A DNA stretch of 64,000 bases, taken from Clostridiales bacterium Firm_16. GTDB lineage: Bacteria; Bacillota; Clostridia; Saccharofermentanales; Saccharofermentanaceae. The translations under genes were made by a program, and so were the position numbers. Location of the stretch: the NCBI GenBank assembly GCA_001604185.1, contig LVAV01000032.1:186001-250000 (forward strand), given 5' to 3'. Shown piece after piece: positions 31,198-48,128 of this stretch. Position 1 is the stretch's first letter, and every line of letters starts with the position of its first letter. The notes under the pieces were generated by a model. That model was not told the origin of the DNA, made no database searches, and saw only the letters and a program-made list of their open reading frames with translations.

Positions 31198-34100
31198 TCA
31201 GATGTTTCCTCTTTCGATGCCGTATTGCTTACAAATCTTCGTAAATTCCTCAGATTGTCCGAAGAATGCCATGACATCATAACGGCTCTGCTTTTTGCTC
31301 TTGATCTGGCCGGCCCAATAGGTTACTTCATCCTTCTCCGGCTCTCTACCCATGAAGGTCGTGTACAATCTCTTCACGTACTCTTCATCTGAAGTATGCA
31401 GATTCAGGAACTCTTGGTCTGTAAAGAATGCCTTGGCAGCGGAGCATCCGGTCTGCTCAAGGTTGGTCAGTGCCAACGACCAGTACTTTAATCCATTCGG
31501 CTCCGGATCACGCTTCAAGCAGCATGTATACAGTCTGGTTGCAAAATCAATTGCATTCTGTGATGCCTTTGTTGCCTTATGGTACTTCGCGCCGGACTTT
31601 ACTCCGTAAGTAGCACAGACATTGCACCACTCTGTGGATTCAATAAAGTTCTCCACCACTTCAGCGCGAGTCATCTTACCACTCTTGAGAGCATCGACCC
31701 AGCCCTTCTTACCTGCTGCATCAGATTCACGATCAAAGAATGTCTTGTACAATGTTTCGACAAAAGCATCGTTGGAAAGACCACGGTCCATGAACTCCGG
31801 AGCATCCAGGAGGAAGAATCTGGCACAATCCGCACCGGTAGCACCTTCATCGACTACCTTTTTCACCCAGTAAGCTTTTCCTTCCGGATCTGACTTACGA
31901 TTCAATGCAACCGTATACAGACGTTCAACAAAGTCTTCGAAGGATGGAGCCTTAGTCGGTGCCTTTGTAGGCGCTTTGGTCGGAGCCTTTGTAGGCTTCT
32001 TAGTCGGTGCTTTCGTAGGTGCCTTGGTCGGTACCTTCGTAGGTGCCTTGGTCGGTGCCTTCGTAGGCGCCTTGGTCGGTGCCTTTGTAGGAGCCTTGGT
32101 CGGAGCCTTCGTGGGTGCCTTTGTAGGAGCCTTGGTCGGAGCCTTCGTAGGTGCTTTAGTCGGTGCCTTCGTAGGTACCTTGGTCGGCGTCGGAGTATTT
32201 ACTCTTCTCGTAGGAGTCGGAGTATTTGTCGGCGCATTCGTAGGAGCCTTCGTCGGCGTCCTTGTAGGTGTATTAGTAGGCGTATTCGTAGGCGCTTTCG
32301 ACGGACTCTTAGTCGGAGTAGGTGTGTTTACCCTTCTCGTCGGTGTCGGAGTATTTACTCTCTTGGTCGGCGTAGGTGTATTCGACGGTCGCGGTGTATT
32401 TGTCGGAGTCGGCGTATGCGTCGGACGCGGTGTATTCGTAGGCGTCGGCGTATGTGTCGGTCTCGGCGTGTTGGTCGGTGTCGGTGTGTTCGTCGGACGT
32501 GGAGTACTTGTCGGTTTAGTCGTATTCGTCGGTCTCGGCGTGTTAGTCGGCGTCGGAGTTACAGCAGAACTGAATGTAGCCTTGCGCTGACCGGCATACG
32601 TTCCCGTCGCATCTGTAATGATACAAAAGATCGCTTTACCGATATCAGCTGATCTGACGACATAGGTTCTTCCGTAATAGCCATTTTCCGTATCACCGGT
32701 ATACCAGGAAAATTTCAGATTAGCCTCAGGACAATTACTGTTAGTAAGTGTAACCGTTAATGTCTCACCAACTATGGTTTTACCACTCTTGGAAACATAT
32801 CCGCTGAGAGTCGGTTGTACCGTCGGTCTCGCTGTCGGAGTATTTGTCGGCTTCCTGGTAGGCGTCGCAGTATTTGTCGGTCTCGGCGAATTCGAAGGCG
32901 TAGGTGTATTCACCTTCTTCGTCGGAGTAGGTGTGTTCACCTTAGGTGTCGGAGTATTCGTCGGTGTGTTTGTCGGCTTCTTTGTCGGAGTCGGCGTATT
33001 CACCTTTGGCGTCGGCGTATGCGTCGGTGTATTTGTCGGCCGCTTAGTTGGCGTAGGCGAATTAGTCGGCGTGTTCGTCGGCCGCTTGGTTGGTGTAGGT
33101 GTATTCGACGGCGTGTTTGTCGGCCGCTTAGTTGGCGTAGGCGAATTAGTCGGCGTGTTTGTTGGCCGCTTGGTTGGCGTAGGCGAATTAGTCGGCGTGT
33201 TTGTTGGCCGCTTGGTCGGTGTAGGTGTATTCGACGGCGTGTTCGTCGGCTTCTTTGTTGGCGTATTTGTAGGCTTCTTCGTCGGTGTATTTGTTGGTGT
33301 ATTTGTTGCCTTCTTAGTAGGTGTAGGTGTATTCACCTTCGGTGTTGGTGTATTTGTCGGAGTGTTTGTCGCCCTCTTGGTAGGTGTTGGTGTTGGAGTA
33401 ACGGCAGAGCTGAATGTAGCCTTACGTTGTCCGGCATAGGTTCCCGTTGAATCCGTTATGATACAGGCAATTGACTTCCCGACATCCGCTGATCTGACAA
33501 CATAGGTTCTTCCATAATATCCATTTGCAGTATCACCGGTATACCAAGAAAACTTCAGATTTGCCTCCGGGCAGTTGCTGTTAGAAATGGTAACTGTTAA
33601 CGTCTCCCCTACGATGGTTTTTCCGCTCTTGGAAACATAACCACTCAGTGTCGGCTGTACTGTAGGCTTCTTCGTCGGAGTATTGGAAGGAGTATTGGAA
33701 GGTTTCTTAGTAGGCGTATTGGTAGGTCTCTTCGTCGGTGTATTTGACGGAGTGATCGTAGGTCTTCTTGTAGGTGTTGGTGTGTCCGAAGGCTTCTTCG
33801 TTGGAGTAGGTGTAGGACCGGATACTTGCAGGCAAGTTACACTTTTACATCCATCAAATGAGTCACTTTCTACTGTGGTCGAAGAGTAGTAATACACATC
33901 GCACAGCATGCACAGATCAAATGCACAACTCCCGATATATTTAACAGTTTTCGGGATCCTTGCTTCCAGAAGGCCATTGTTGGAGAAAGCCCATGCTTCG
34001 ATTCTTTCCAGAGAATTCGGAAAAGTGATTTTCGTACAGTCTGAGTTAAAACGGAAAGCATACTCACCAATTTCAACTATACCCTCCGGAATAACAACTG

Positions 34101-34392
34101 ACGAGAAAACATTCAATCCGTTAAATGCATTCTGACCGATCCTTGTTACTCTGTATCCACCTAAAGTAGAGGGAACAGTAAAAGGGAACGGATTTCCGTC
34201 CCATCCGGAAAGACTATAACTGGTAATGCATGCAGTACCATCGCTCTGCACAGAATAAATGAAGTTTCCATCCACATTCATAACTGTGTTGGCGGCCTGC
34301 ACGGTCGTGGTCGGGCAAATACATAAAACGGAAATAATTAAAGCAATCGCAGCCAGGAAACTGGCTACACGTGTAGATCTACTCACTTTCAC
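31198..34392 (-). CDS. Secreted LRR-headed protein with long Pro/Thr stalk, two Ig-like domains and DUF4214 tail
   Basis: A 1064-residue secreted protein. A signal peptide (ending TVQAA, near residue 33) precedes a small leucine-rich head (residues ~60-190, BspA-like, e.g. [18 protein letters not shown]). A Pro/Thr stalk of more than 500 residues is broken by two near-identical Ig-like domains ([19 protein letters not shown] ... RSADVGKSI). A (K-A-P-T)n segment then joins the 248-residue, four-repeat DUF4214 tail (residues 817-1064). The tail is about 83% identical by hand alignment to that of the gene at 34551. The start is taken as GTG at 34392, eight bases after AAGGAG, matching the paralog; the ATG at 34398 is only two bases from that site. 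No sortase motif is present. Confidence 0.85.
31945..32187 (-). repeat. 12-bp (K-A-P-T) tandem repeat array with 36-bp higher order
   Basis: About 20 in-frame 12-bp units encode K-A-P-T (with a few KVPT and KKPT). A 35-base segment at 32078-32112 recurs exactly at 32114-32148, a 36-base period, showing recent unit duplication. Confidence 0.85.
32188..33820 (-). repeat. Pro/Thr stalk DNA with 42-bp tandem repeats and a duplicated Ig-like unit
   Basis: Stalk coding DNA of [10 protein letters not shown] type. Five tandem 42-bp copies (14 residues each) lie at 33038-33079, 33080-33121, 33122-33163, 33164-33205 and 33206-33247. Two Ig-like units lie near 32560-32820 and 33395-33660 and are similar at the DNA level. 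Confidence 0.85.
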
Positions 34393-34429
34393 AAACATTT
34401 CTCCTTAGTATCAATACATCCTCATTATC

Positions 34430-34458
34430 ATTATACACAGCACTATGGAGATATGCCA
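34430..34458 (-). promoter_or_regulatory. Promoter of the 1064-residue DUF4214 protein gene
   Basis: On the minus strand TATAAT (34435-34430) is preceded after 17 bases by TGGCAT. A TGACTGG-N2-TAT-N-CC block and GTATAATG are shared with the promoter of the paralog at 36431. Confidence 0.6.
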
Positions 34459-34474
34459 GTCAAGATTGAATGAG

Positions 34475-34511
34475 AAAAAGCCTTGAAGCAAGAGTTTACT
34501 CCAAGGCTTTT
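34475..34511 (-). terminator. Terminator of the 613-residue DUF4214 protein gene
   Basis: A 10-bp stem pairs 34476-34485 with 34502-34511; T residues in the stem continue on the minus strand. Confidence 0.75.
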
Positions 34512-34550
34512 CAGATCTCATCAAATTATTTTTCGAGTCAGGAATTCGGA

Positions 34551-36392
34551 TCAGATCGTTCCACGCTCAATACCATACTGTTTACAGATCTTAGTGAACT
34601 CATCTGACTGACCAAAGAACGCCAGAACGGAGTCACGGGTCTGCTTACCGTTATAGATCTGGCTCGTCCAGTAACTTATTTCTTCCGCTTCCGGAGCTCT
34701 TCCCATGAAGGTCGTATACAGTCTCTTGACGTATTCTGCATTACTGGTCTTCAGACCAACAAATTCCTTATCCGTAAAGAAGGATTTTGCTGCGGAACAA
34801 CCGGTCTGCTCCAGGTTGGTCAATGCCAGTGCCCAGTACTGCAATCCGTTAGATTCCGGTGTGCGCTTGAGACAGCAGGTATAAAGTCTTGTCGCGAACT
34901 CCAGCGCATTCTTGGACGGCTTGGTAGCCGTATAATACTTGGAACCGGACTTGACGCCATAAGTCGCACACACATTGCACCACTCGGTGGATTCAATGAA
35001 GTTATTGACTACTTCTGCCCGAGTCATCTTCTTATTCTTCAAAGCATCGACCCAGCCCTTCTTGCCGGCGGCATCGGATGCACGATCGAAGAAAGTCTTA
35101 TAGAGCGTCTCGACAAAATCTTCGTTGGAAAGACCACGGTTCATGAACTCAGGCGCATCCAGCAAGAAATATCTCGCACAATCTGCACCGGTCGCACCTT
35201 CATCCACAACCTTCTTTACCCAGTAAGCCTTACCGGACGGATCAGACTTGCGGTTCAAGGCTACTGTGTAGAGACGTTCCACAAAATCTTCGAAAGACGG
35301 ATCTTGCGTAGGAGCCTTGGTAGGCGTCTTCGTCGGGGCCTTAGTCGGACCATTTGTCGGCGACTTCGTAGGAGCTTTAGTTGGCGCCTTGGTAGGTGCT
35401 TGGGTAGGACTCTTTGTAGGAGCCTTTGTCGGACTCTTAGTCGGCGCTTTCGTAGGCGAACCGGTCGGAGCCTTAGTCGGGGCTTTTGTCGGAGCCTTAG
35501 TCGGAGCCTTCGTTGGTGCCTTAGTTGGCGCTTTTGTAGGTTCCTTGGTAGGCGTCTTTGTCGGCGTGGAAGTCACCTTTCTGGTCGGTGTAGGGGAGCT
35601 GCCCTTCTTCGTCGGAGTAGGGGTATTCACTCGTTTTGTCGGAGTAGGTGTGTTAACTCTTCTTGTCGGAGTCGGAGTATTGACCCGTCTTGTAGGAGTC
35701 GGTGTGTTTACCTTTTTCGTCGGGGTCGGTGAATTCTTCTTTGTCGGTGTTGGAGAATTGGTCTTCCTGGTCGGAGTCGGAGAATTCGTCTTTCTGGTCG
35801 GCGTAGGCGAATTGCCACCGCCACCCTTTAAAATTGTAACGCTCTTGCATCCATAGAAAGAATCTTCCTCAACCTGGGTACCTTCGTAATAGTACACATC
35901 GCAAAGACCACAAAGGTCAAAAGCTCTTGTACCTACGTATTCCAGTCCTTTCGGAAGACGGGCTTCATACATGCCGTTATTAGAGAAGGCCCATGCCCCG
36001 ATTTTCTTTAACGTGCTCGGGAAAGTGATCTTTGTGCAGTCGGAATTATAACGGAATGCGTAATCACCAATCTCATTGATACCTTCCGGGATTACTACCT
36101 CTGAGAAAATATTCAATCCGTTGAAAGCATCCCGTCCGATCTTGGTGACCTTGTATCCGCCTAAAGTAGATGGAACCTTCAGTGGAATCGGGTTTCCTTC
36201 GTAACCGGATTGTCCGGCATCATACCAATAAATACTGACTGTGCCGTCATCCAGCATCTCATAGGTGTAGGCACCGTCATAACCTCTTGTTCCCGCCTCA
36301 ACGACCTTGGCCGGCTGGAAACTAAGAACAGAAAAAATCAGAGAAACAACCGCCAGGATCCCGGCGAAACGTGTAAATCGATTTACTTTCAC
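34551..36392 (-). CDS. Secreted LRR-headed protein with Pro/Thr stalk and DUF4214 tail
   Basis: A 613-residue secreted protein, paralog of the one at 31198. A signal peptide (about residues 1-33) precedes a leucine-rich head clearly homologous to the neighbour's (e.g. [49 protein letters not shown]). A Pro/Thr stalk of about 160 residues, first SPTPTRKTN-type then KAPTKAPT-type, leads to the four-repeat DUF4214 tail (residues 366-613) ending GIERGTI. Cysteines recur at fixed places in the tail (WCNVC, YTCCL, ICKQY). The start is taken as GTG at 36392, eight bases after AAGGAG; the same AAGGAGAA-N6-GTGAAAGT layout occurs in the paralog. No Ig-like insert and no known cell-wall anchor are present. 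Confidence 0.85.
   Translation of the reverse strand: MKVNRFTRFAGILAVVSLIFSVLSFQPAKVVEAGTRGYDGAYTYEMLDDGTVSIYWYDAGQSGYEGNPIPLKVPSTLGGYKVTKIGRDAFNGLNIFSEVVIPEGINEIGDYAFRYNSDCTKITFPSTLKKIGAWAFSNNGMYEARLPKGLEYVGTRAFDLCGLCDVYYYEGTQVEEDSFYGCKSVTILKGGGGNSPTPTRKTNSPTPTRKTNSPTPTKKNSPTPTKKVNTPTPTRRVNTPTPTRRVNTPTPTKRVNTPTPTKKGSSPTPTRKVTSTPTKTPTKEPTKAPTKAPTKAPTKAPTKAPTKAPTGSPTKAPTKSPTKAPTKSPTQAPTKAPTKAPTKSPTNGPTKAPTKTPTKAPTQDPSFEDFVERLYTVALNRKSDPSGKAYWVKKVVDEGATGADCARYFLLDAPEFMNRGLSNEDFVETLYKTFFDRASDAAGKKGWVDALKNKKMTRAEVVNNFIESTEWCNVCATYGVKSGSKYYTATKPSKNALEFATRLYTCCLKRTPESNGLQYWALALTNLEQTGCSAAKSFFTDKEFVGLKTSNAEYVKRLYTTFMGRAPEAEEISYWTSQIYNGKQTRDSVLAFFGQSDEFTKICKQYGIERGTI
35298..35820 (-). repeat. Pro/Thr stalk repeats
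   Basis: Tandem 12- and 24-base-period coding repeats for PTKAP and PTPTRK units. Bases 35441-35504 are identical over 64 bases to 21163-21226. Confidence 0.8.
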
Positions 36393-36420
36393 AACAAATT
36401 CTCCTTTACTAAAAAACATC

Positions 36421-36459
36421 CTCACGCCCCATTATACAACAGTGCGTGAGGAATAGACC
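36421..36459 (-). promoter_or_regulatory. Promoter of the 613-residue DUF4214 protein gene, with inverted repeat
   Basis: On the minus strand TATAAT (36436-36431) has TGGTCT 18 bases upstream. The -10 lies in the loop of a 7-bp inverted repeat, CTCACGC (36421-36427) and GCGTGAG (36444-36450), a possible operator. Confidence 0.55.
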
Positions 36460-36521
36460 AGTCAGGATATGTATAGAAATATCAGAAAAATACCCTCTTC
36501 GGATACGCTTCCCGATAGTCC

Positions 36522-37919
36522 TTATGCCTTTGGACGGGCGATTTTCTTATAGGTCTCGCCACCGCAGGCTTCGAAAAGTTTGACCATTTCTTCGTCACTG
36601 ATAACAGTAACACGGCCGCCCTCGTACTGCTCATCGATCCATTCTTTCATCTTGGCGATGAAAGGATCTTTCTTGCTGACCACACTCTCCCCGGCCAGGC
36701 GATAGTAGTTATTGATCCAGCAGGCAATACCGGCCAGTCCGGAAACGTTGCTGACGGCAACAAGCGGCGGACGATCCAGAAGTGCTTCCGTATCGAAAAT
36801 GTTATAGATCTCCGGATCCTTCAGAAGACCGTCTGCATGGATACCGGCCTTGGTAACATTGAAGTTCTTGCCGACGAAAGGCGTCATCGGCGGAAGTTCA
36901 TAATTGGTCTCGCGTGAAATATAGTCTGCAATCTCTGTGATGACACGGGAATCCATACCATCCAGAGTACCCTTAAGCTGAGCATATTCGAAAACCATAG
37001 CCTCCAGCGGAACATTACCGGTTCTCTCACCGATACCGAGAAGCGAACAGTTTACGGCCTGAGCGCCGTACAGCCATGCTGTCGAAGCATTGACCACGCC
37101 CTTATAGAAATCGTTATGACCGTGCCACTCCAGCATCTCAGACGGTACACCGGCGTAGTGCTGCAGACCATAGATGATACCGGATACAGAACGCGGCAGG
37201 GCAACACCCGGGAAAGGAACACCATAACCCATAGTATCGCAGGCACGGATCTTTACCGGGATCCCGCTCTCATCGGACAGGCGCATCAGCGCGGTTGCGA
37301 AAGGCACGACAAATCCGTAGAAATCCGCACGTGTAATGTCCTCGAAGTGGCAGCGCGGACGAAGTCCGGCATCGATGGCATCGGTAACGATACCGATATA
37401 CTTATCCAGAGCCTGTTTACGTGTCAGGCCCATCTTGTTGAAAATATGGTAATCTGAGCAGCTTACCAGGATACCGGTCTCCTTGATACCGATATTACGA
37501 ACCAGTGCGAAATCGGACTTGGTTGCACGGATCCAGGTCGTGATCTCCGGGAACTTATATCCCAGTGCCATACACTGCTCCAGTGCCTGGCGGTCTTTCT
37601 CTGAATATACGAAAAACTCTGTCTGGCGGATGATCCCCTTAGGGCCTCCGAGGCGGTGCAGCATTTTATAGATCTCCACCATCTGCTCGGTGGTATACGG
37701 CGCACGGGACTGCTGACCGTCACGGAAAGTGGTATCCGTAATGAAGATCTGCTCCGGCATGTTCATCGGAACTTTTCTATAGTTATAGGCAATTTTCGGA
37801 ACTTCGGCATAGGGGAACATCTCACGGAACAGTTCCGGCTTCTCCACATCCTGCAATGCATACTGATACGGATCTTGCTCGAGAAGATTGCTCTTATCAC
37901 TCAGCGCTATATTTTTCAT
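36522..37919 (-). CDS. DRE-TIM metallolyase, Re-citrate synthase / isopropylmalate synthase-like
   Basis: A 465-residue enzyme of the HMGL-like family that condenses acetyl-CoA with a 2-oxo acid. The metal and substrate motif is TDTTFRDGQQ (D62, R66, D67), the conserved metal-binding HGHND is in EMLEWHGHNDFYKG, and NCSLLGIGERTGNVPLEAM and KAGIHADG complete the catalytic barrel. It lacks the C-terminal leucine-regulatory (LeuA dimer) domain. A long N-terminal extension of 55 residues and the form of the motifs fit the group that includes clostridial Re-citrate synthase, so oxaloacetate is a possible substrate; that is inference. No leuB/leuC/leuD is adjacent. The ATG follows AGGAGG. Confidence 0.75.
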   Translation of the reverse strand: MKNIALSDKSNLLEQDPYQYALQDVEKPELFREMFPYAEVPKIAYNYRKVPMNMPEQIFITDTTFRDGQQSRAPYTTEQMVEIYKMLHRLGGPKGIIRQTEFFVYSEKDRQALEQCMALGYKFPEITTWIRATKSDFALVRNIGIKETGILVSCSDYHIFNKMGLTRKQALDKYIGIVTDAIDAGLRPRCHFEDITRADFYGFVVPFATALMRLSDESGIPVKIRACDTMGYGVPFPGVALPRSVSGIIYGLQHYAGVPSEMLEWHGHNDFYKGVVNASTAWLYGAQAVNCSLLGIGERTGNVPLEAMVFEYAQLKGTLDGMDSRVITEIADYISRETNYELPPMTPFVGKNFNVTKAGIHADGLLKDPEIYNIFDTEALLDRPPLVAVSNVSGLAGIACWINNYYRLAGESVVSKKDPFIAKMKEWIDEQYEGGRVTVISDEEMVKLFEACGGETYKKIARPKA

Positions 37920-37963
37920 GTTTCGTTCCTCCTACTTGCAAAAATGCACATGCGTACCTATAT

Positions 37964-38008
37964 AGTAAAATCGTTTCAAACGCGCTTGTCAACGTCCGAA
38001 ACGATTTT
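37964..38008 (-). promoter_or_regulatory. Inverted repeat: terminator of the M48 gene and/or promoter-operator of the citrate-synthase-like gene
   Basis: An 11-bp perfect inverted repeat (37967-37977 and 37998-38008, 20-base spacer) has T residues on the minus side, like a terminator for the gene ending at 38071. Its loop contains TTGACA on the minus strand (37992-37987), with TTTACT 17 bases and TACTAT 19 bases downstream, so it also looks like a promoter for the gene starting at 37919. Confidence 0.5.
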
Positions 38009-38070
38009 TCTACTTTTTCATTTGCTCTTTTGATTTTTGCAAGATGTTTTTGTTTAAATTGCACGCAGAC

Positions 38071-38964
38071 TTAGAAGAACAGTCTTCCGCTGCCATGATC
38101 CTTCAGCAGTGCCTGGATACGTTTCGGCATGATCGGATGGGAGCTCAGAAGGTTATAGATAAATATGAAGAAGCCGCGTGTCTCGTGGCAATGTTTCACG
38201 TAGTCTTCTACATCCACCTTCTTATAAAGGTGCTTACCTACCACCAGTGCCAGCATCGGTTCCACGCCACTGACACCCGTAAGATGCTGGGCCACACGAT
38301 CACAGCTGTATTCTCTGGCACGGGACAGCGCCTGACCGATGATCGGAACGTAGTTGGCGAAAAGAATGCTGATCTGATACAGGAATGTCGCATGGCGGAG
38401 ACGGATATGAGTCATCTCGTGTCCGATAATGAACTTGATGCTCTCCAGATCGTGGTGTTCCAGATAGGCCACTTCGAATAGATCCGTCAAAAGAACGATA
38501 TACTGGCGACGAAGGATAAATGTCGCAAAAGCATTCATAAGACCATTCTCCTGGGTCAGATATACCTTCGGGGTCTTCTTCATGCCGAGGCGCTTACTAT
38601 AGTCCTCGATCACCTGATAGATCTCCGGGAAGTTCTTTTCCGTAATACGGATCGCATTGGCACGATACTGGGCGTAGTACAAGTATACAGACATAATGAG
38701 CGTCAGAGGCAGAAGTGCTATGACGAACAGATACGTCAGCGGTGATACCGCACCGTCTACATTGGTTCCTGTGATCATCTCGGCGACCCTCTCCCCGCCT
38801 TCTCCGGCCAAAGGACCCACTTCATAGAAAAAAGCGATCAGGCTGAAGACTATCAGCAGTACGACGAAAGCAATGTTGATAACGACCATCGTCACGTACA
38901 GCGGTTTTTCCGCGCGATGACGGAAGGAACGTATCTCTTGTTCTGTAAAAGGTTGTATATCCAT
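38071..38964 (-). CDS. M48 family membrane metallopeptidase
   Basis: A 297-residue membrane protease of the HtpX/Ste24-like M48 family. Two hydrophobic segments (about residues 22-47 and 74-97) precede the catalytic domain. The zinc site HEMTH has H182, E183 and H186; the third ligand is E218 in SRAREYSCDR. The C-terminal SSHPIMPKRIQALL matches the family end (SxHPxxxxRI). Such proteases act in membrane protein quality control. The ATG follows GAGG by about ten bases. It appears monocistronic, with a putative terminator at 37967-38008. Confidence 0.87.
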   Translation of the reverse strand: MDIQPFTEQEIRSFRHRAEKPLYVTMVVINIAFVVLLIVFSLIAFFYEVGPLAGEGGERVAEMITGTNVDGAVSPLTYLFVIALLPLTLIMSVYLYYAQYRANAIRITEKNFPEIYQVIEDYSKRLGMKKTPKVYLTQENGLMNAFATFILRRQYIVLLTDLFEVAYLEHHDLESIKFIIGHEMTHIRLRHATFLYQISILFANYVPIIGQALSRAREYSCDRVAQHLTGVSGVEPMLALVVGKHLYKKVDVEDYVKHCHETRGFFIFIYNLLSSHPIMPKRIQALLKDHGSGRLFF

Positions 38965-39077
38965 AGTTCTTGCACCTCATTTATCAGATTAAAGTTACCA
39001 CATTACTACTTTTTCTTCAATCAGAGCAGGTAGCTCTATCGGTGGGGAAACGATAAGATTTGACGGGATATCCTGAC

Positions 39078-39106
39078 TTGAATTTTATATATCCTCTATT
39101 TATACT
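39078..39106 (+). promoter_or_regulatory. Promoter of the membrane protein-nadE-methyltransferase operon
   Basis: TTGAAT (39078-39083) and TATACT (39101-39106) are spaced 17 bases apart; a leader of about 100 bases follows. Confidence 0.7.
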
Positions 39107-39211
39107 GAATACGTTTTATCCGTGAAAGCGGGCTCTGACACGGAAGCATGCGTGGATTTCTCTACTTTTAGAAGAAGGAATAGGAACGAGACAACAAGGA
39201 GAGGCGGATTT

Positions 39212-40441
39212 ATGAGTTCTATAGTAAAAAAGGTTAAGATGTACAATCTCAGAAGCAGGGTGATCATCGGACTGGTGATTATTGCCCTTTCATTTCTGAT
39301 CTTGTTCGCGTTGCTGCCAAAGACCACTTCCTACCTGACGGCATCGAAGAATGTATTCGCACAGCCATACACCACTTTAAAAAATGAGAAGTTCTATCGT
39401 GGCAAGACCAAGTGCATCATTGACTGGTATGCAGACAACGATAAAGGACGTTTCTATCTGGCTCCGATGGAGGATGCCAATGGCAGTTCCGGCTTTCTGA
39501 GCGTCTATGTACCCAAGAAGTACTACGAAGAAGTCGAGAATATCGCGGACCAGACCTGGGACTATATGGAGACCGGTGACACATCCAAGCTGGTAAAGGA
39601 GTTCACCTGCCGCGGCTACATCACGGACCTTTCCGGTACGGCCAGATCCTATCTGGAGCAGTATCTTCGTCAGGCAGATACCACCGGGAACTCTCTGGAT
39701 CGAGTCAGTGACAAGATTTTCGTCGTCGTGCCTTTCACAGATATTCTGAGCGGCGACTCGGTCGTGTACATCTTACTTATGATTTTATTCACCGGTGTAG
39801 GTATCTACATGATCTTCTCCGGCCTCACAGGCTTAGGTATAAAGAAGTTCAAGCAGAAACTTTCCTCAAAGGGAATAACGGCAGATCAGCTGGATGCGGA
39901 TATGGTAAACAGTTCCAAAGTCGGTACGCTCTATATCGGAGACAATTACTTAGTCGAATGCAGCTTGAATCCGACTTTCCATGTTCTCTCGGATATTGTC
40001 TGGTATTATCCGGAGAAGACCAATGCCGGCTCCAACCAGACGAAGTACTACGCAACCGCATATACACGGAATCACGAGAAGCTTCTCTTCCCGGCCAAGA
40101 CCGAATCCGATTCTCTGCTCCTGTGCCAAAAGATCCGGGACAAGCAGCCTCGAGCCCTGTATGGATATGTCATCGAGAATTCTACACTGTACTACTCGCA
40201 TTTCGACGAACTGCTGAAGATCGTCTACGATCCGAATTACGGTGCAGATTCTGAAGCACCGGCAGCTGAAACTCAGCCGAGCCAGCCGGACGTTGCTGAG
40301 CAGCAGCCGGCCGCACTGCAAAATGACTCTTCCTGGATGAATGATCCGGAGTATACTTTAAATGCTGATGCAGTCCCAATGGAGAACGTTTTCAAACCAA
40401 TGAATGATCCTAACGGATCCGAAAGGAGCGATGATTTATGA
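39212..40441 (+). CDS. Membrane protein of unknown function with two membrane segments
   Basis: A 409-residue protein I do not recognise. Membrane segments lie near residues 18-38 and 185-207, enclosing an extracytoplasmic domain of about 145 residues (WYADNDKGRFYLAPMEDANG). The second half (about residues 215-345) should be cytoplasmic, with a repeated theme of YIGDNYLVECSLNPTF and LLFPAKTESDSLLLCQKI, and the tail is Pro/Gln/Ala-rich and acidic. The ATG at 39212 follows AAGGAGAGGCGG; a longer frame reaches 39122 by a GTG without a ribosome site. Its stop overlaps the nadE ATG (ATGA), so it is co-translated with nadE. No function should be inferred from that alone. Confidence 0.7.
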   Translation: MSSIVKKVKMYNLRSRVIIGLVIIALSFLILFALLPKTTSYLTASKNVFAQPYTTLKNEKFYRGKTKCIIDWYADNDKGRFYLAPMEDANGSSGFLSVYVPKKYYEEVENIADQTWDYMETGDTSKLVKEFTCRGYITDLSGTARSYLEQYLRQADTTGNSLDRVSDKIFVVVPFTDILSGDSVVYILLMILFTGVGIYMIFSGLTGLGIKKFKQKLSSKGITADQLDADMVNSSKVGTLYIGDNYLVECSLNPTFHVLSDIVWYYPEKTNAGSNQTKYYATAYTRNHEKLLFPAKTESDSLLLCQKIRDKQPRALYGYVIENSTLYYSHFDELLKIVYDPNYGADSEAPAAETQPSQPDVAEQQPAALQNDSSWMNDPEYTLNADAVPMENVFKPMNDPNGSERSDDL

Positions 40442-42363
40442 AAGACGGATTCTTACGTGTAGGCGCAGCTACTCCCAAGCTTCGGGTAGCGGACATTGAT
40501 TTTAACGCAGAACAGATTATCTCCTGCGTGAACAATGCAGACAAGGATTGCGCACTTCTGGTATTCCCGGAGCTCTGTGTTACAGGATGTACCTGTGGAG
40601 ATCTTTTCCGCCAGGATGCTTTCATTGACAAAGCCTGGGCGGCCCTTTACCAGATCGCTGAGGAGACATCTTCCTCGAATACCGTCTTTATCATCGGTCT
40701 TCCGGCTTTCATGGAAGGCAAACTCGTCAACCTGGCTGTGGTCCTTCACGAAGGCACGATCCTGGGCTGTAATGTAAAACTTACCTTGAATGAAGCCGAA
40801 TCCCGCTACTTCTCTCCTTATGAGACCAGCGGTTCTTTCTACGATGAATACTTCGATGAAGAGATTCCCTTCGGCCAGCCTCTTTATTTCTGCGAGAACG
40901 ACCTGTTCTCCTTCGCCGTGATCTTCGACGAAGATCTGCACGCGCCCATCTCGGACGATGTAGATGCTGCCCTGGCCGGATGCCACATCATCGCGACCCT
41001 CTCTTCCCGCCCGTATATCGTAGGCATGGAACAGAAGACCGCCCAGCTGCTCTCCGCTTCGAGCAGAAAGCTGCACGCGGCCTATATCTTCGCCAACGCA
41101 GGTGTCGGCGAATCCACTACAGACCTTGTCTTCGCAGGCATGGATATGATCTATGAAAATGGTAAAGAACTGGCACGTAGCAAGGCCTTCTCTTCTGAGG
41201 CGGTCTACTCCGATATCGATCTAAAATTTCTCTACGCCGAGCGCACACGTGACGATGCCTGGAGAACGGATTTTGCCAACAGCACAGTGGATGCGGATAT
41301 CGACTTTGTCAGCTTCGAGATGGATCTGAACGAAGATCTTTCCCTGATCCGCAAGGTTCCGAAGAATCCTTTCATTCCAGAGGACTCGAAGGAGATCAGT
41401 TCACGTTGCGAGCAGATCCTGAATCTGCAGGCTATGGCACTGGTGACACGAATGAATCACATCGGCAGTAAGAAGGTCATCCTGGGTCTGTCCGGTGGTC
41501 TGGACTCCACCCTCGCCTTCCTGGTCAGCGCCCGTGCATTTGACATCATGGGTCTTCCCAAGAGCGATATCCATGCAATTACCATGCCGTGCTTCGGTAC
41601 CACATCCCGTACCAAGAACAACTCCATCGAGCTGGCCAAGGCTTATGGTGCACGGATCGATGAGATTTCCATCAAGGACAGCGTGACACAGCATTTCAAA
41701 GACATCGGCCACGATTTGGACAACCACAATGTGGCTTTCGAGAATGCCCAGGCCAGAGAGCGCACCCAGCTTCTCATGGACCTCGGCAATGACGAAGGTG
41801 CACTGGTAGTCGGTACCGGCGACCTCAGCGAACTGGCTCTCGGATGGGCTACCTATAATGGTGACCATATGTCCATGTATGCCGTGAACAGTTCTGTTCC
41901 GAAGACTCTGATCCGTCACATCGTAGCTTATGAAGCCGAACGCGTGAAGGAATCCCAGCCGGCCCTTTCCGAAGTCCTGCTGGACATCCTGGCCACCCCG
42001 GTATCTCCGGAGCTTCTGCCTCCGACAGAAGACGGCACGATCTCCCAGAAGACAGAAGATCTCGTAGGACCTTATGAGCTTCACGACTTCTTCCTCTATT
42101 ACTTCGTACGTCTAGGTTTCGCACCTTCGAAGATCTACCGTCTTGCGAAGATCGCTTTCGCCGGCGAATATGACGACGCGACGATCTATAAATGGGAGGA
42201 AACTTTCCTGCGTCGCTTCATCACACAGCAGTTCAAGCGTTCCTGCATGCCGGACGGACCGAAGGTCGGTTCTGTGGATCTGTCCCCTCGTGGCGATCTG
42301 CGTATGCCTTCCGATGCTGCATACAAGGTTTGGCTGGAAGAATTAAAAACGGTGCTGGAGTAA
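40438..42363 (+). CDS. nadE: NAD+ synthase, glutaminase-domain type with altered active site
   Basis: A 641-residue NAD+ synthetase that amidates nicotinic acid adenine dinucleotide. The C-terminal ATP-pyrophosphatase domain is intact: LGLSGGLDSTLAF, VVGTGDLSELALGWATYNGDHMS (in two parts) and NSSVPKTLIRHIV. The N-terminal nitrilase-like glutaminase domain keeps E45 (FPELCVTG) and K114, but the nucleophile position, normally Cys in V-E-I-C-E-D, reads V-I-F-D164-E-D-L-H. The flanking AALAGC block aligns without gaps to the mycobacterial type as I recall it, so the site is not misplaced; C152 is 12 residues away. The enzyme may therefore use free ammonia. The ATG overlaps the upstream stop. Confidence 0.9.
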   Translation: MKDGFLRVGAATPKLRVADIDFNAEQIISCVNNADKDCALLVFPELCVTGCTCGDLFRQDAFIDKAWAALYQIAEETSSSNTVFIIGLPAFMEGKLVNLAVVLHEGTILGCNVKLTLNEAESRYFSPYETSGSFYDEYFDEEIPFGQPLYFCENDLFSFAVIFDEDLHAPISDDVDAALAGCHIIATLSSRPYIVGMEQKTAQLLSASSRKLHAAYIFANAGVGESTTDLVFAGMDMIYENGKELARSKAFSSEAVYSDIDLKFLYAERTRDDAWRTDFANSTVDADIDFVSFEMDLNEDLSLIRKVPKNPFIPEDSKEISSRCEQILNLQAMALVTRMNHIGSKKVILGLSGGLDSTLAFLVSARAFDIMGLPKSDIHAITMPCFGTTSRTKNNSIELAKAYGARIDEISIKDSVTQHFKDIGHDLDNHNVAFENAQARERTQLLMDLGNDEGALVVGTGDLSELALGWATYNGDHMSMYAVNSSVPKTLIRHIVAYEAERVKESQPALSEVLLDILATPVSPELLPPTEDGTISQKTEDLVGPYELHDFFLYYFVRLGFAPSKIYRLAKIAFAGEYDDATIYKWEETFLRRFITQQFKRSCMPDGPKVGSVDLSPRGDLRMPSDAAYKVWLEELKTVLE

Positions 42364-42370
42364 TCACTAC

Positions 42371-43636
42371 ATGAAACAAGAAAGAGCTTTTGCCAAAGCA
42401 GTTGTGACCGAGAAAGCGGAGGCCGCCGTTAAGCGTGGGCATCCTTGGGTCTACGATACCGAGATCACGGAGTTTGCCGGAGAGAAAGTAAAGGACGGCA
42501 TCTTCGGTGCGTCTGCGGACCAGGTCGAGAATGGTGCCCTTACGGATGTTTTCTCTTCCAAAGGACGTTATCTGGGAACCGGCTTTCTCAGTAAGAACAG
42601 TAAGATCCGCGTCCGGATCCTCTCGGACAATGCCAACGAGACCTTCGGGCCGGCATTCTGGCAGCGCCGGGTAAAGTACGCCCTCGATATGCGTCGCACG
42701 GTCATGCAGGATGATTATGCCTGCTGCCGTCTGATCTTCGGCGAGGCGGACGGTATCCCGGGACTGACCGTGGACAGGTACGAAGACATTCTTTCTACGG
42801 AAGTGCTGTCCTATGGCACCGAGCAGGTCAAGGACATCATCTACCGCGCTTTGGTGGAAGAACTGAAGAAAGACGGTGTCACCGTCCGTGGTATCTATGA
42901 AAGAAACGAAGCCCTTCTTCGCGAGAAAGAAGGGCTCCCCATTGAGAAGGATTGGTACAAAGGGGATTTCACAGGCATTCCTGATTCCTCCCTGGTGCAC
43001 ATATGTGAGAACGGTATCCACTATACCGTCGATGTCGAAAACGGTCAGAAGACCGGTTTCTTTCTCGACCAGAAGTATAACCGTCTGGCCGTCAGTAAGC
43101 TTGCCCGTGGCATGAAGGTCCTGGACTGCTTCACGCATACCGGATCTTTCGCCATGAATGCGGCTCGTGGCGGTGCCGCACATGTTACCGCCGTAGATGT
43201 TTCCCAGCTGGCCGTCGACACCGCAGAAGAAAATGCGAAGATCAACGGTCTTTCCGACAGAATGGATTTCATCTGTGCGGATGTGTTCGAACTTCTTCCG
43301 AAACTGGAAGCGGAACACGCGGATTATAACTTTATCATTCTCGATCCGCCGGCCTTTACCAAAAGCCGCAAGACCACCGAGAATGCCAAGCGCGGCTATA
43401 AAGAGATCAACTACCGCGCCATGAAGATGCTGCCTCGTGGCGGATATCTGGCGACCTGTTCCTGCTCTCACTTTATGCCGAACGAACTGTTCCGCAAGAT
43501 GCTTCTGGAAGCAGCCAGAGACGCCGGTGTTACACTCCGTCTCATCGAGGAACGGCGGGCCGCGCCGGATCATCCGGTGGCCATGTCGATACCTGAGACA
43601 GACTATCTGAAGTTCTATTTACTGCAGATCGTATAA
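42371..43636 (+). CDS. Class I rRNA methyltransferase, RlmI-like
   Basis: A 421-residue SAM-dependent RNA methyltransferase. A PUA-like N-terminal domain (KRGHPWVYDTEI ... GRYLGTGFLSKNSKIRVRIL) is followed by a linker with IFGEADGIPGLTVDRY and the Rossmann domain: GQKTGFFLDQKYNR, VLDCFTHTGSFAMNAARGG, DVSQLAVDTAEEN and the catalytic ILDPPAFTKSR. The closing motif ATCSCSHFM has the usual cysteine. This is the RlmI/YwbD layout, which makes m5C in 23S rRNA; the target is inferred from family. It follows nadE by seven bases and ends the operon, with a terminator at 43645-43669. Confidence 0.88.
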   Translation: MKQERAFAKAVVTEKAEAAVKRGHPWVYDTEITEFAGEKVKDGIFGASADQVENGALTDVFSSKGRYLGTGFLSKNSKIRVRILSDNANETFGPAFWQRRVKYALDMRRTVMQDDYACCRLIFGEADGIPGLTVDRYEDILSTEVLSYGTEQVKDIIYRALVEELKKDGVTVRGIYERNEALLREKEGLPIEKDWYKGDFTGIPDSSLVHICENGIHYTVDVENGQKTGFFLDQKYNRLAVSKLARGMKVLDCFTHTGSFAMNAARGGAAHVTAVDVSQLAVDTAEENAKINGLSDRMDFICADVFELLPKLEAEHADYNFIILDPPAFTKSRKTTENAKRGYKEINYRAMKMLPRGGYLATCSCSHFMPNELFRKMLLEAARDAGVTLRLIEERRAAPDHPVAMSIPETDYLKFYLLQIV

Positions 43637-43644
43637 GTTCTTTT

Positions 43645-43669
43645 CCCGTCGAAAACCGGCGGGATTTTT
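43645..43669 (+). terminator. Terminator of the nadE operon
   Basis: A 7-bp stem with one G-T pair (43645-43651 with 43657-43663, loop AAAAC) is followed by five T residues. Confidence 0.85.
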
Positions 43670-43700
43670 AATTTCGGAAAAGAACTGTCGCAGATGCGGA

Positions 43701-45104
43701 TCAACTCATCAGCGCCTTGATGCAACAGTTATTCGGCGGACACTCCAGAGTCAATTCCTCTACCAGAGACGGATCGGTAAGATCCCGCCACTGCCCGTTC
43801 AGAAGCAGGAAGGACTGGCCTTCTTCACTTGAGGTAATGTATTCTATGGAACTGACTTTCTCTGCTTCTTTTAGTTTCGCCGGATCCACACCTTCCACCG
43901 GAGCGGCACCGTAATAGGTGATCACGATGGAGAAATCCTCCACATCCAGAGGCGTATCCAGTTCGATCACATAGTATCCCTCGTAGTCGAAAGTACAATC
44001 TTTTCTGGCGTACTCCTCTTTCATCTCAGCATCCCGGATCGAGATGACGCATCTTGTATTGTCGCATAAACCGAAATTGTGCTGTGTGAGGGACGGTTCA
44101 ACACCAATATAGGTTCCCACTGCTGCCAGTTGTCCTTTATGGTGAAATACATTTGCGACACAAGTCTCATTACCGGTCTTGATACCCATTGCAGAACCAC
44201 CATCGTAATGCAATACTTCCTTATACTTATCAGACACAGAGATCGTCGTAGCGAAACGAATGGCAGAATAATAAGAGACCCAGTAGTACCCACCGTTTCC
44301 GGCTTTCTCTCCGGCGCTGTCTTTCAGAAGCCATGCACCGTCCCCCTTTGGCGGTGTCCTTCCGTATTCCGCTCCGAAATAATCCTTCGGGAAGTTATCG
44401 TCCCAACCCACAACGATGGCCGCATGCCCGAAATACCCGTCCGGATAAACAGGCTGTTCTTCGGAAGCGAATTTATCGTCGTATATAGTAAAGTAGCCAT
44501 GGGTCTGCACATAGCCGGTAGCAGCATTCAACAAGGCAATAACGCCACCCTCGGTACGGATAAGATTCTTGATCTCATCGCGGCTTGCCAGATCGTAGGA
44601 ATAATCCATATCGGCGCCGAACTTATCCTGGGCCGTACCCGGCCGCGATTCGAATAGGACAGGACTTTTCACTACGGTATATCCGTTACAGCCGTTCGAT
44701 AATGACCAGATTGCAAGGACCGGATCTCCACCGACATTATTCTCCTGACCGGCGTTGACCACGCGCATTCCTTCCGTCTTGTCCGGACTGTAGTGCGTTT
44801 TCACGATATCATCAACTGTGATGGAAATGTCTTTTCCGTTCTTGATCTGGTAACTGGTACGGATCGCGTCCACCATCGACTGCGCCCAGCAATTACCTTG
44901 CGCGCCTTGGTTCCGGACTTCTGTCTTGATCCCGTTATCCAACTGGGAATAGTAACCCTTCTTCCCGTGGACATACTCGCCCTTCTTACCTAAATCACAT
45001 CCATAGATCCCCAAACTCATGGAAGCACATACGGCAATGATCCCCGTCTTTTTCAGTCCCCATCTGAAACGGCGGGCGCGATTTGTTCTGTCTTCTCCCC
45101 GCAT
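43701..45104 (-). CDS. Papain-like (C1) cysteine peptidase, exported, probably lipid-anchored
   Basis: A 467-residue exported protein. A basic start and hydrophobic segment lead to I-Y-G-C36, an imperfect lipobox. The papain fold shows the catalytic Cys in VRNQGAQGNCWAQS (C72) and His in FGHAAIVVGWDDNF (H227). The third catalytic position, usually Asn in V-K-N-S-W, reads L-L-K-D262-S-A. A C-terminal beta-rich region follows (VISIRDAEMKEEY ... FSIVITYYG), as in clostridial C1 peptidases with a lectin-like or adhesion domain. It probably acts on extracellular protein or peptide. The ATG at 45104 follows GGGGGAG. It converges with the nadE operon. Confidence 0.82.
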   Translation of the reverse strand: MRGEDRTNRARRFRWGLKKTGIIAVCASMSLGIYGCDLGKKGEYVHGKKGYYSQLDNGIKTEVRNQGAQGNCWAQSMVDAIRTSYQIKNGKDISITVDDIVKTHYSPDKTEGMRVVNAGQENNVGGDPVLAIWSLSNGCNGYTVVKSPVLFESRPGTAQDKFGADMDYSYDLASRDEIKNLIRTEGGVIALLNAATGYVQTHGYFTIYDDKFASEEQPVYPDGYFGHAAIVVGWDDNFPKDYFGAEYGRTPPKGDGAWLLKDSAGEKAGNGGYYWVSYYSAIRFATTISVSDKYKEVLHYDGGSAMGIKTGNETCVANVFHHKGQLAAVGTYIGVEPSLTQHNFGLCDNTRCVISIRDAEMKEEYARKDCTFDYEGYYVIELDTPLDVEDFSIVITYYGAAPVEGVDPAKLKEAEKVSSIEYITSSEEGQSFLLLNGQWRDLTDPSLVEELTLECPPNNCCIKALMS

Positions 45105-45238
45105 AATATGTCTCCCCCATTCGCGTACTTTTCGGTTGCTGTACGCGTCTGTAATTTAAGCATACAGGAATCACCCGAGAGGGAAAACCCGAGAAAATTG
45201 AAGAAAAACAGGGATGAATTCAAAAAGCCACCGCTTCG

Positions 45239-48019
45239 TCAATCGATCTTCAATTTGTCCAGTCCATGCAAATAGGTAAACTTCAATGTCTTGAGCTTGA
45301 GACCTCGTTTTCCGAAATGCAGACGATAGATTGAATGTTTGTTCAACAGTAGGAATTCCGCTTTACGGCTCATGTCTTCACCATCGGAACCATTGAAGGT
45401 AATCACCCGCAACGGGATACTCGTATAGTAAAGCGTGATCGGAAGCTGTGCCAGCGGCTCCAGTTCCGAGGAAGCGATCAGTTCACACTCATAGACACCC
45501 GGCGTATCACATGTCACACCTATGACATAGTCCTTGCCGTCCGTGGTATCCACATCCACTTCGACTACCGGATTCGCTTCAATATCGTAGTACAGATCTA
45601 CCTTCGCCTCGATGGTGTCTTCAGAGAACGGGCAATCGATGTGCTTAACCACAGGCTTATCCCCCATGACCGCATCCATGGCCGGAGTGTTCATGGCGAA
45701 ACGCAAGATGTTGGCCGCATTTCTCTGCAGCTCGGCTCTCGTGATCAGATCAGTCCTGCCGCCTGTCAGATTCTCATAGGTATCCGATGCCAGAAGGGAT
45801 TCCTTCTCCACATTCGAGCACACCATATAAACATCGCACTGGGAACGGGCCATAACAGAATGGCTTCGCAGATTGTGATCGTGAGGATTCTCCGGGATGC
45901 AATCGATATATGCCCACCAGTCTGTCATGAGAAGACCTGTATAACCCCACTGCTCTCGAAGGATCGTGGTATTCAGCTCATAGTTGGCTGTACCGAAGGT
46001 GCCGTTGATCATGTTATATACGCTCATGATGCTTCGCGCTGCGCCTTCCTTCACTGCGATCTCGAACCCCTTCAGATAGATCTCACGAAGTGCTCTCTCC
46101 GAAACGATGGAATCCATGAAACGTCTTCTCGTCTCACGGTTATTGCAGCAGAAATGCTTGATGGTCGCCGTGACACCGTGCTTCTCCAGTCCCGCAATCT
46201 GAGCGCAGGCCATGCGTCCTGTCAGCAGCGGATCCTCGGAGAAGTACTCGAAGTTTCTTCCGTTTAACGGATGACGATGGATGTTGATACCCGGACCCAG
46301 GATCGAATCCACTTCGTTGCTGACCATCTCGATACCAAACCAATTGAAAAGCTCTTCGTTCAGTTCTTCGTTAAATGTACATGCCAGGCAGGTTCCATTC
46401 GGCAAGGAGAACGCCTTCTTGCCACTGTCGATACGCATGCCGGAAGGACCGTCATCGCAGCACAGTGCAGGAATACCTTTATCCATCAGTTCACGGGAAG
46501 CGCCCGCATAAGCAGCGGCCGTTCCGGTAGTGACCTTCGGGCTGCCCATGCCCTCTCCTCGGATGATCAAAGTGAGCTCCTCATCCGAAAGCTGGGCGAT
46601 GAACTCATCCAGCGAGTTCTTTTGCAGCTTTACATCGGCAAGCTTGATACCCTTATCGCCGGTCTGCGGGATCTCTTTCTGCACCCGGTCAAGTCTCGTA
46701 TCCAGATGTTCAACCTGACGAAGCGGAACGGGTTCGTATTTGCCGCCTATGGTCAGTCTTTCGAAAGCCTGAAGCGGCTTGGCAGCAGACTCCAACGGTT
46801 CCAGCATCGTGTCTTCCGAAACTTCTATGGAGCCCACTTCGGATGCATCAACAACATCGATACCGGCATAGAAGGAATAGGTGCCCTTCGGAAGTACCCA
46901 TCCGGTCTGACCCATCAGTCTGCCGTCATCGTCGAAAGCTGCAAATCGATTGCTTCCGCAGGAAAGAGTTATCTCCTGCTCCTGACCCGGAGCCAGTTCC
47001 GATGTCTTGGCAAAATCAACCAGCACACGTGCCGGGGTCGCTATACGATCGGAGGGCGCCTGAGCGAAGAGCATCACGGTCTTCTTGCCGACACGTTCTC
47101 CGATATTCTTCACAAGAAGCTTCAAGCTGACATCGGTTCCCGAAGCGGTAAAATCCGAAACAGCGATGCGGAACTTTGTATAGGAAAGGCCAAATCCGAA
47201 AGGATACAGGACTTTCTCCGGTGCGAATGTCGAGAAATAACGATATCCCACGAAGATATCCTCGGCATAGAAATCACGGGACAGGTCTTCTCCGCCGAAA
47301 TTCGCAGAAGACGGATAATCCGAAAGTTCCCGGGCAATGGTATCGGTCAGACATCCGGAAGGATTCGATTTACCTGTTACGAGATCCGCACAGGCCGTAC
47401 CGCCGATCATGCCGGCCTGCCATACATAGAGCACAGCAGCAGGATCGTATTTCTCGACCCATGACATATCGATTATGTTTCCCACGTTCAGAAGAACGAT
47501 GGTCTTACTGAAGGAAGCACAGACTTTCGACAGCATCTCCTCCTCCCCGTCACTAAGGAAGAAGGAACCTTTCTGATCCGTATTGTCACGGTCTTCACCA
47601 GCCGTACGGGCAATCACCAGGATCGCTGCGTCATTTCTCTCCGAAGCGGTTTTTACAACCTCATCTGAAAGCGGCATTTCCGGCTGGGACCATTTCTCCT
47701 TGCCCCATCCGAGACCCGGGTCTACCGGATTCTTGGCTTCCCATTCATCGTAGATCTTCAGGAGATCTTCATCGACCGTGATCCCGTCCGCATTCTGCAG
47801 TCCCTCAAGGATGGAGACCACATGCTTGACGTTGACCATACCGCCGGAGCCGGTACCGCTCTTATAGTAATTCCGCTGCATTCTACCGAAGACGGCGACC
47901 TTCGCACCATCAGACAGTGGAAGCGTATCTCTGTCATTCTTCAGAAGGACCGAGCCTTCGCGCGCAACCTGAATGGCCGCATCCGTGTACTTGTTCCAGT
48001 CAAGGATATATTCAGACAT
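45239..48019 (-). CDS. Glycoside hydrolase family 3 enzyme with permuted domain order
   Basis: A 926-residue GH3 enzyme (beta-glucosidase/xylosidase-like). The usual order is reversed: the GH3 C-domain comes first (EGSVLLKNDRDTLPL at the N terminus, then YPFGFGLSYTKF near residue 290), then an FN3-like domain, then the catalytic barrel (about 470-790). The barrel has CCDDGPSGMRI, GPGINIHRHPLNGRNFEYFSED (two pieces), IKHFCCNN and the nucleophile in LLMTDWWAY (D700). This permuted form is known from gut Clostridia. No signal peptide is seen, so the enzyme is probably cytoplasmic and acts on imported oligosaccharides. The ATG at 48019 has GGAGG six bases upstream; no transporter is adjacent. Confidence 0.9.
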   Translation of the reverse strand: MSEYILDWNKYTDAAIQVAREGSVLLKNDRDTLPLSDGAKVAVFGRMQRNYYKSGTGSGGMVNVKHVVSILEGLQNADGITVDEDLLKIYDEWEAKNPVDPGLGWGKEKWSQPEMPLSDEVVKTASERNDAAILVIARTAGEDRDNTDQKGSFFLSDGEEEMLSKVCASFSKTIVLLNVGNIIDMSWVEKYDPAAVLYVWQAGMIGGTACADLVTGKSNPSGCLTDTIARELSDYPSSANFGGEDLSRDFYAEDIFVGYRYFSTFAPEKVLYPFGFGLSYTKFRIAVSDFTASGTDVSLKLLVKNIGERVGKKTVMLFAQAPSDRIATPARVLVDFAKTSELAPGQEQEITLSCGSNRFAAFDDDGRLMGQTGWVLPKGTYSFYAGIDVVDASEVGSIEVSEDTMLEPLESAAKPLQAFERLTIGGKYEPVPLRQVEHLDTRLDRVQKEIPQTGDKGIKLADVKLQKNSLDEFIAQLSDEELTLIIRGEGMGSPKVTTGTAAAYAGASRELMDKGIPALCCDDGPSGMRIDSGKKAFSLPNGTCLACTFNEELNEELFNWFGIEMVSNEVDSILGPGINIHRHPLNGRNFEYFSEDPLLTGRMACAQIAGLEKHGVTATIKHFCCNNRETRRRFMDSIVSERALREIYLKGFEIAVKEGAARSIMSVYNMINGTFGTANYELNTTILREQWGYTGLLMTDWWAYIDCIPENPHDHNLRSHSVMARSQCDVYMVCSNVEKESLLASDTYENLTGGRTDLITRAELQRNAANILRFAMNTPAMDAVMGDKPVVKHIDCPFSEDTIEAKVDLYYDIEANPVVEVDVDTTDGKDYVIGVTCDTPGVYECELIASSELEPLAQLPITLYYTSIPLRVITFNGSDGEDMSRKAEFLLLNKHSIYRLHFGKRGLKLKTLKFTYLHGLDKLKID

Positions 48020-48033
48020 AAGCACCTCCGAAA

Positions 48034-48068: not shown

Positions 48069-48128
48069 CCGCATACATAAGTGATGTCTTTTTTGCAAAC
48101 AATTCGAAGCACTGCCTCGATTTACATA

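Follow-up and report, generated by a model that had tools for sequence, protein, structure and literature searches.

The question raised by this locus is whether a two-domain nicotinamide adenine dinucleotide (NAD) synthetase can still depend on glutamine when the nucleophile of its glutaminase domain is replaced. The gene, nadE, lies in a 64,000-nucleotide stretch of contig LVAV01000032.1 of Clostridiales bacterium Firm_16 (positions 186,001 to 250,000; hereafter the window). Its open reading frame (ORF) is uninterrupted. Residues 2-639 of the product match NCBIfam NF002730, 'NAD(+) synthase', with 748.8 bits against a cut-off of 473, and in a phmmer search residues 3-636 align with nearly the whole length of Mycobacterium tuberculosis (Tb) NadE. 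Both the ATP-pyrophosphatase NAD synthetase domain (PF02540, residues 335-498, 89.2 bits) and the fused nitrilase-like domain (PF00795, CN_hydrolase, residues 12-265, 32.9 bits, above the cut-off of 23.2) are present. The first-pass annotation of this DNA claimed that Asp164 (codon GAC) takes the place of the catalytic Cys, and the alignment, in which Asp164 faces Tb Cys176, bears this out. The Cys-Glu-Lys triad, as assigned for Tb NadE in PMC6946656, is incomplete in the window NadE, which has Glu45 (Tb Glu52) and Lys114 (Tb Lys121) and lacks the Cys. That E45, K114, and the synthetase domain are kept was also correctly noted, as the alignment and the family matches agree. Two details needed revision. 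The exchange of Cys for Asp stands, but the whole motif is altered, reading V-I-F-D-E-D instead of V-E-I-C-E-D within the local sequence S-F-A-V-I-F-D-E-D-L-H. The neighboring residues align without gaps immediately around Asp164, but between Lys114 and Arg123 there are four residues fewer, with a spacing of nine positions here and thirteen in Cys-bearing relatives.

Asp at this site had been presented as an oddity. It does stand in the window gene, but the loss of Cys is genus-wide, as Asp or His, and recurs in the order. Orthologs occur in all 22 other genomes available for the genus and are 78-85% identical; that of G015 is partial and that of G017 is in two pieces. Site 164 is Asp in 14 and His in 9 of the 23 genomes (13 Asp and 9 His from 22 alignment rows, plus Asp in the G017 piece). 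A chance or read error, for which a check had been advised, is excluded because all 23 genomes lack Cys at the site. The draft state of the genomes and the two frames of the G017 gene could speak for a sequencing error or a pseudogene. However, the 23 Cys-less orthologs, the open frames in the others, and a median ratio of nonsynonymous to synonymous substitution rates (dN/dS) below 0.1 rule against this explanation, whose chance we regard as negligible. The G017 ortholog itself (L023, G017:C34:6672-8623) is split into two overlapping frames, by an assembly error or a real frameshift. In a tree of the synthetase domain only, Asp and His are separated by one change among the 17 thinned genus rows. 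The Cys-less genus clade has a Shimodaira-Hasegawa-like approximate likelihood ratio test (SH-aLRT) support of 100 and is nested in a larger group of Cys-bearing sequences, and the nearest named rows include Mageeibacillus and Saccharofermentans metagenome-assembled genomes. This tree used the 226 of 232 rows with enough synthetase columns, thinned to 125. The trees were built by a quick method with long branches flagged, and 9 fragments were left out of one of them.

The replacement of the nucleophile is accompanied by the loss of much of the glutamine pocket. We defined near-invariant positions as those at least 95% conserved among 151 Cys-bearing rows and examined them in the 21 Cys-less genus rows that are full-length. 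The glutaminase domain has 54 such positions; all of these genus rows keep 33 and lack 12, and the other 9 have changed in some of the rows. The lost positions include Tyr51, Pro118, Tyr120, Glu162, Cys164, Trp168, Asn187, Ser191, Glu193, Lys197, and Arg201. Among them are the residues that face Tb Tyr58, Tb Phe180, and the Tb segment from Ser203 to Arg209, in which we take Ser203 and Arg209 to have a glutamine-binding role. Tb Tyr127 to Phe130, a part of the YRE loop, has no counterpart in the window NadE in this alignment. Neither an intact YRE loop nor an intact set of glutamine contacts was found, the positions of Tyr58, Phe/Trp180, Ser203, and Arg/Lys209 being changed. In Tb NadE, Tyr58, Phe130, and Glu132 form a tunnel constriction and Tyr127 contacts the glutaminase ligand, according to PMC6946656. 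The first-pass annotation had expected no glutamine hydrolysis from the domain. With the nucleophile, a part of the YRE loop, the gate aromatic, and other near-invariant residues gone, the sequence strongly supports this prediction. In the synthetase domain, 108 of the 124 near-invariant positions are unchanged in all 21 genus rows.

The pocket might still be catalytically active, with the Asp or His serving in a new hydrolase or a slow glutaminase. The invariance of Glu45 and Lys114 would suit such an activity, as would the replacement residue, which in the genus is always ionizable and switches once on the tree. However, His and Asp differ in chemistry, the YRE loop is incomplete and pocket residues have been lost, and the site is occupied by Gly, Tyr, or Ser in other Cys-less lineages. 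We consider this explanation very improbable. The same residues suggest another idea, which we hold to be unlikely, that the genus pocket was rebuilt as an ammonium entry port. The Asp or His, together with Glu45 and Lys114, would capture and deprotonate NH4+ and hand NH3 to the ancestral tunnel. Lys609 and an acidic residue at Asp620, which presumably has an interface role, are kept in the genus, and their equivalents are lost in the Cys-less lineages g9, g10, and g13 of the same order. The Lys114 equivalent is lost in g9 and g13, with the alignment of the divergent g9, g10, and g13 rows being less sure. The pattern is suggestive only, because 49% of the columns of the domain are invariant anyway.

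The explanation that we favor, with a probability of about 0.8, is that the window NadE is an ammonia-dependent NAD synthetase which keeps a pseudo-glutaminase domain for its architecture. It would descend from a glutamine-dependent NadE that became ammonia-dependent. The synthetase domain would adenylate nicotinic acid adenine dinucleotide and then amidate it with free NH3. The N-terminal domain, predicted to be unable to bind or hydrolyse glutamine, would be retained for its structural contribution to the oligomer and to the interface between the domains. We infer the catalytic activity, ammonia as the donor, and the scaffold role. Of the three options in the first-pass annotation, direct use of ammonia and a fold kept for assembly fit best, and assembly is the probable reason for the retention of the domain. 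Free ammonia is accepted by Tb and human NadE, and the kcat/Km of the human enzyme (hsNadE) is 0.49 with ammonia and 0.45 with glutamine (PMC6946656). Since working two-domain enzymes accept ammonia, loss of the glutaminase should leave an ammonia-dependent enzyme. Evidence for physiological ammonia use by single-domain NadE is described in PMC3376133, which also states that T. maritima has both forms. Among titles and opening lines of abstracts from a mostly open literature, and in look-ups in PMC3376133 and PMC6946656, we found no description of a NadE with a replaced glutaminase nucleophile.

We compared the divergence of the glutaminase domain with that of the synthetase domain. The median glutaminase/synthetase divergence ratio is 1.99 in the Cys-less genus set (204 pairs). 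The Cys-bearing sets give 1.67 for the genus paralogs (100 pairs), 2.27 for the sister genus g2 (1818), 2.06 for the named loci (2775), and 3.34 for g7 (9), and the other Cys-less lineages give 3.00 for g9 (15 pairs), 2.23 for a single g13 pair, and 1.05 for a single g10 pair. The median dN/dS of the glutaminase domain is 0.084 (32 pairs), compared with 0.071 (26) and 0.092 (124) in Cys-bearing sets; these pairs are non-independent and their dS is near 1. Purifying selection acts on the domain much as on working glutaminase domains, and its divergence ratio falls within the range of the Cys-bearing sets. The AlphaFold2 model of the window NadE has a mean predicted local distance difference test score (pLDDT) of 82.6 and matches Tb NadE with a Z of 44.9 and 2.3 Å over 612 residues at 37% identity. 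Residues 1-287 of the model match nitrilase-family amidases with Z up to 30. Because the divergence ratio, dN/dS, and predicted fold are retained, the Cys-less domain of the genus is no decaying remnant.

The window genome has both a Cys-less and a Cys-bearing NadE. By PF02540 and protein searches, a second NadE is found in 17 of the 23 genus genomes, with Cys where it was read (16 and G004). The same searches found none in the other six, namely G003 (99% complete), G011 and G019 (95%), G007 (94%), G017 (89%), and G015 (80%), where weaker PF02540 matches of about 30 bits or less were not individually identified. The Cys-bearing paralog is only about 40-45% identical where long matches exist and groups far from the Cys-less clade on the tree. 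Its neighborhoods vary, and none is conserved across the 14 loci compared. In the g2 genome G171, L270 is of the genus's Cys-bearing paralog type and no match of the usual g2 type occurs, which suggests horizontal transfer or replacement.

The presence of both copies in 17 genomes allows two further explanations. The Cys-less NadE could form joint assemblies with the paralog, acting as a regulatory or structural subunit to which the paralog would supply ammonia via inter-subunit tunnels; Tb NadE does pass ammonia between subunits, as PMC6946656 reports. However, the six genomes in which no paralog was found, four of them 94-99% complete, weaken an obligate partnership. The low identity, the distance on the tree, and the lack of a conserved neighborhood also speak against co-assembly, as does the absence of a partner from 18 genomes in other Cys-less lineages. 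We find it quite improbable. Alternatively, the enzyme could have shifted to another amidation reaction while its divergent paralog makes NAD. The largely unchanged synthetase positions argue against such a shift, as do the six genomes without another NadE found, and we give it a very slight chance. A division of labor, in which the two copies use different nitrogen donors depending on the ammonium level, would fit.

The remaining option of the first-pass annotation, that another protein feeds the ammonia, would have a separate glutaminase dock on the domain. Stand-alone glutaminase subunits are known for some NAD synthetases (PMC3376133), and other CN_hydrolase proteins are present in all five genus genomes tested. 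However, the eight neighboring ORFs, which lie within 34551 to 50144, gave no match to any glutaminase family. In the single-contig genomes G037 and G040, which belong to other Cys-less lineages, no CN_hydrolase domain was found besides that of the Cys-less NadE. A docking glutaminase is disfavored by these results and is, in our view, most unlikely.

The loss of Cys is not confined to the genus. For the order, 188 genomes were available, of which 159 have a match at an expectation value (E) of 1e-40; 132 were read, 129 of them at the site. The remainder, with further g12, g19, and g21 genomes among it, was left out or consisted of identical copies, sequences with identical last 300 residues being counted once. 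Of these 129 genomes read at the site, 88 carry Cys-bearing copies only, 24 carry Cys-less copies only, and 17 carry both kinds (with G004 corrected). Outside the genus, Cys-less copies occur in g9 (Tyr, 6/6), g10 (Gly, 2/2), g13 (Gly, 2/2), and g12 (2/2), in two of three g19 genomes (the third is unclear), in one of three g17 genomes, and in G040, G037, and G049. The replacements in these lineages are Gly, Tyr, or Ser; the residue in g12 and g19 is alignment-dependent, because the motif is not recognizable there. Parsimony gives 10 changes between Cys and non-Cys, 9 when the doubtful L215 is unscored, and 7 when eight long-branch or odd rows are unscored. The apparent Cys of L215, scored as Cys in the 10-change count, is judged a chance alignment. 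The parsimony run counts G004 as Cys-less, since its partial Cys-bearing copy L046 was trimmed and the Cys was seen in a separate alignment. We interpret these changes as probable repeated losses. Among the named loci, which are best matches to the query and form a biased sample, 3 of the 79 readable ones are Cys-less. No second NAD synthetase was found in the 18 tested genomes of other Cys-less lineages, one of which is only 73% complete. Second matches of 40 bits in the g9 genomes G044, G050, and G088 proved to be GMP synthetase (family scan of the G050 copy only).

Several observations weigh against an ammonia-dependent NadE with a structural domain. The 17 genus genomes keep a Cys-bearing NadE as well, and constraint is unequal across the Cys-less lineages, with the higher domain ratio in g9. 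The invariance of Glu45 and Lys114 is not demanded by a pure scaffold, a weak point given the share of invariant columns. Glutamine synthetase (PF00120) is present in all five genus genomes tested and matches in 11 of 17 tested genomes of other Cys-less lineages, for which the comparison set is only two Cys-bearing genomes. The window genome has eight matches to the class I amidotransferase family PF00117, and seven of them contain Gly-x-Cys-x-Gly (L291, L295, L299, L301, L302, L304, and L306), and the motif was not found in the weak eighth match, L307. Because glutamine synthetase and these amidotransferases are present, glutamine is not abandoned in the genus, and a general loss of its use in the window genome is unsupported. 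Rumen and gut contents are ammonia-rich. For the genus, the glutamine synthetase and the amidotransferases count against a simple 'ammonia-rich niche' story. The other six of the 17 genomes have no PF00120 match (G037, G040, G041, G053, G082, and G083), two of them being single contigs.

Other amidotransferases of these lineages show similar changes. The class I glutaminase nucleophile Cys of CTP synthetase is replaced by Gly in all six g9 genomes (L308-L313). G041, G082, and G083 show the same replacement (L314-L316, the g12 and g19 loci); G041 also has a Cys-bearing second copy (L321), and no HPE motif could be recognized in the G082 and G083 sequences. The loss in CTP synthetase does not accompany that in NadE everywhere, as both g10 genomes keep the CTP synthetase Cys. 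The CTP synthetase query had no match in 6 of the 19 genomes searched, and the motif pattern missed 3 of 14 loci, which were read separately. In three g9 genomes the GMP synthetase (L288, 359-1711 on the + strand; also L289 and L290, partial) has a shortened class I glutaminase domain, and TIGR00888 in L288 covers only positions 1-92 of 188, with 62 bits against a cut-off of 172. Three amidotransferases, NadE, CTP synthetase, and GMP synthetase, seem to be inactivated in the one genus g9. Because g9 shows the same kind of loss in CTP synthetase and, in the three genomes examined, GMP synthetase, the data suggest that some members of one clostridial order may have switched several biosynthetic amidations to ammonia in place of glutamine.

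The features of the locus are collected in the table. The downstream methyltransferase is mostly 82-90% identical among loci, and its one miss, L024, ends at a contig end. Elsewhere in the window, at 31198-36425, two adjacent paralogs carry long repeats rich in Thr and Pro, flanked by a BspA-type leucine-rich part on one side and by DUF4214 repeats on the other (family scan on the second protein only).

Table. Features of the nadE locus in window coordinates; clade and row counts refer to the Cys-less genus sequences.
Feature	Coordinates	Strand	Evidence
Upstream ORF, DUF6709 (PF20456), fast-evolving, syntenic	39122..40441	+	tblastn match in 21/22 other genus loci; miss is L010, cut short
nadE, two-domain NAD synthetase, predicted inactivated glutaminase domain, 641 aa	40438..42363	+	family matches, Tb NadE alignment, model
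Nitrilase-like (CN_hydrolase) domain, residues 1-285, putative pseudo-glutaminase	40438..41292	+	PF00795 12-265; fold match ~1-287
Glu45 = Tb Glu52, general base	40570..40572	+	kept in 22/22 genus-clade rows
Cys51 at Tb Tyr58 position (tunnel constriction 1)	40588..40590	+	Tyr in 0/22 clade rows
Lys114 = Tb Lys121	40777..40779	+	kept in 22/22 rows
Shortened YRE loop, 4 residues fewer Lys114-Arg123; gap place alignment-dependent	40780..40806	+	alignment
Asp164 (GAC) at nucleophile Cys176 position	40927..40929	+	Asp/His in 23/23 genus genomes
His168 at glutamine-gate aromatic (Trp in relatives, Phe180 in Tb)	40939..40941	+	alignment; role from PMC6946656
ATP-pyrophosphatase NAD synthetase domain, residues 317-636	41386..42345	+	PF02540 335-498; 108/124 near-invariant positions unchanged
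SGGLDS motif, residues 352-357	41491..41508	+	invariant in 21 rows
Lys609 = Tb Lys644 (ammonia-tunnel constriction 2A)	42262..42264	+	kept in 21/21 covering rows; role from PMC6946656
Asp620 = Tb Asp656, C-terminal SPRGD stretch	42295..42297	+	Asp 19, Glu 2 of 21 rows
Downstream ORF, S-adenosylmethionine-dependent methyltransferase + PUA-like domain (PF10672, PF17785), syntenic	42371..43636	+	tblastn match in 21/22 other genus loci

Enzymes with the two-domain architecture of this family are assumed to be glutamine-dependent, which should not hold for those of the whole genus nor, as counted by parsimony, for those of six or more other lineages. Such natural replicates of glutaminase loss in an amidotransferase would allow a test of the other roles of the domain in assembly, gating, and ammonia entry. 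Compared with the glutamine-dependent type (M. tuberculosis NadE, PDB 3dla/3szg; NF002730), the window NadE shares full-length homology, domain order, predicted fold, synthetase motifs, and the Glu and Lys of the triad. It differs in the Asp or His at the nucleophile, the YRE loop shorter by four residues, and the lost pocket residues. Like the single-domain NH3-dependent NAD synthetase (E. coli type), it is predicted to use no donor other than free ammonia. Unlike that type, it keeps a complete N-terminal nitrilase-like domain and groups with the two-domain enzymes. Vertebrate carbamoyl-phosphate synthetase I (CPS I) retains an inactive glutaminase-like domain; in the window NadE, divergence ratios and dN/dS show the retention, and inactivity is predicted from the sequence. 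Human CPS1 has Ser in place of the catalytic Cys of this retained domain and uses free ammonia, which is proposed to enter CPS I by another route (PMC4655335 and PMC7657897). The Cys-His-Glu glutaminase and the synthetase of CPS I are both of other kinds, and we treat it as a functional analogue with no homology claimed. By this analogy, the best explanation is that the window NadE may be the NAD counterpart of carbamoyl-phosphate synthetase I.

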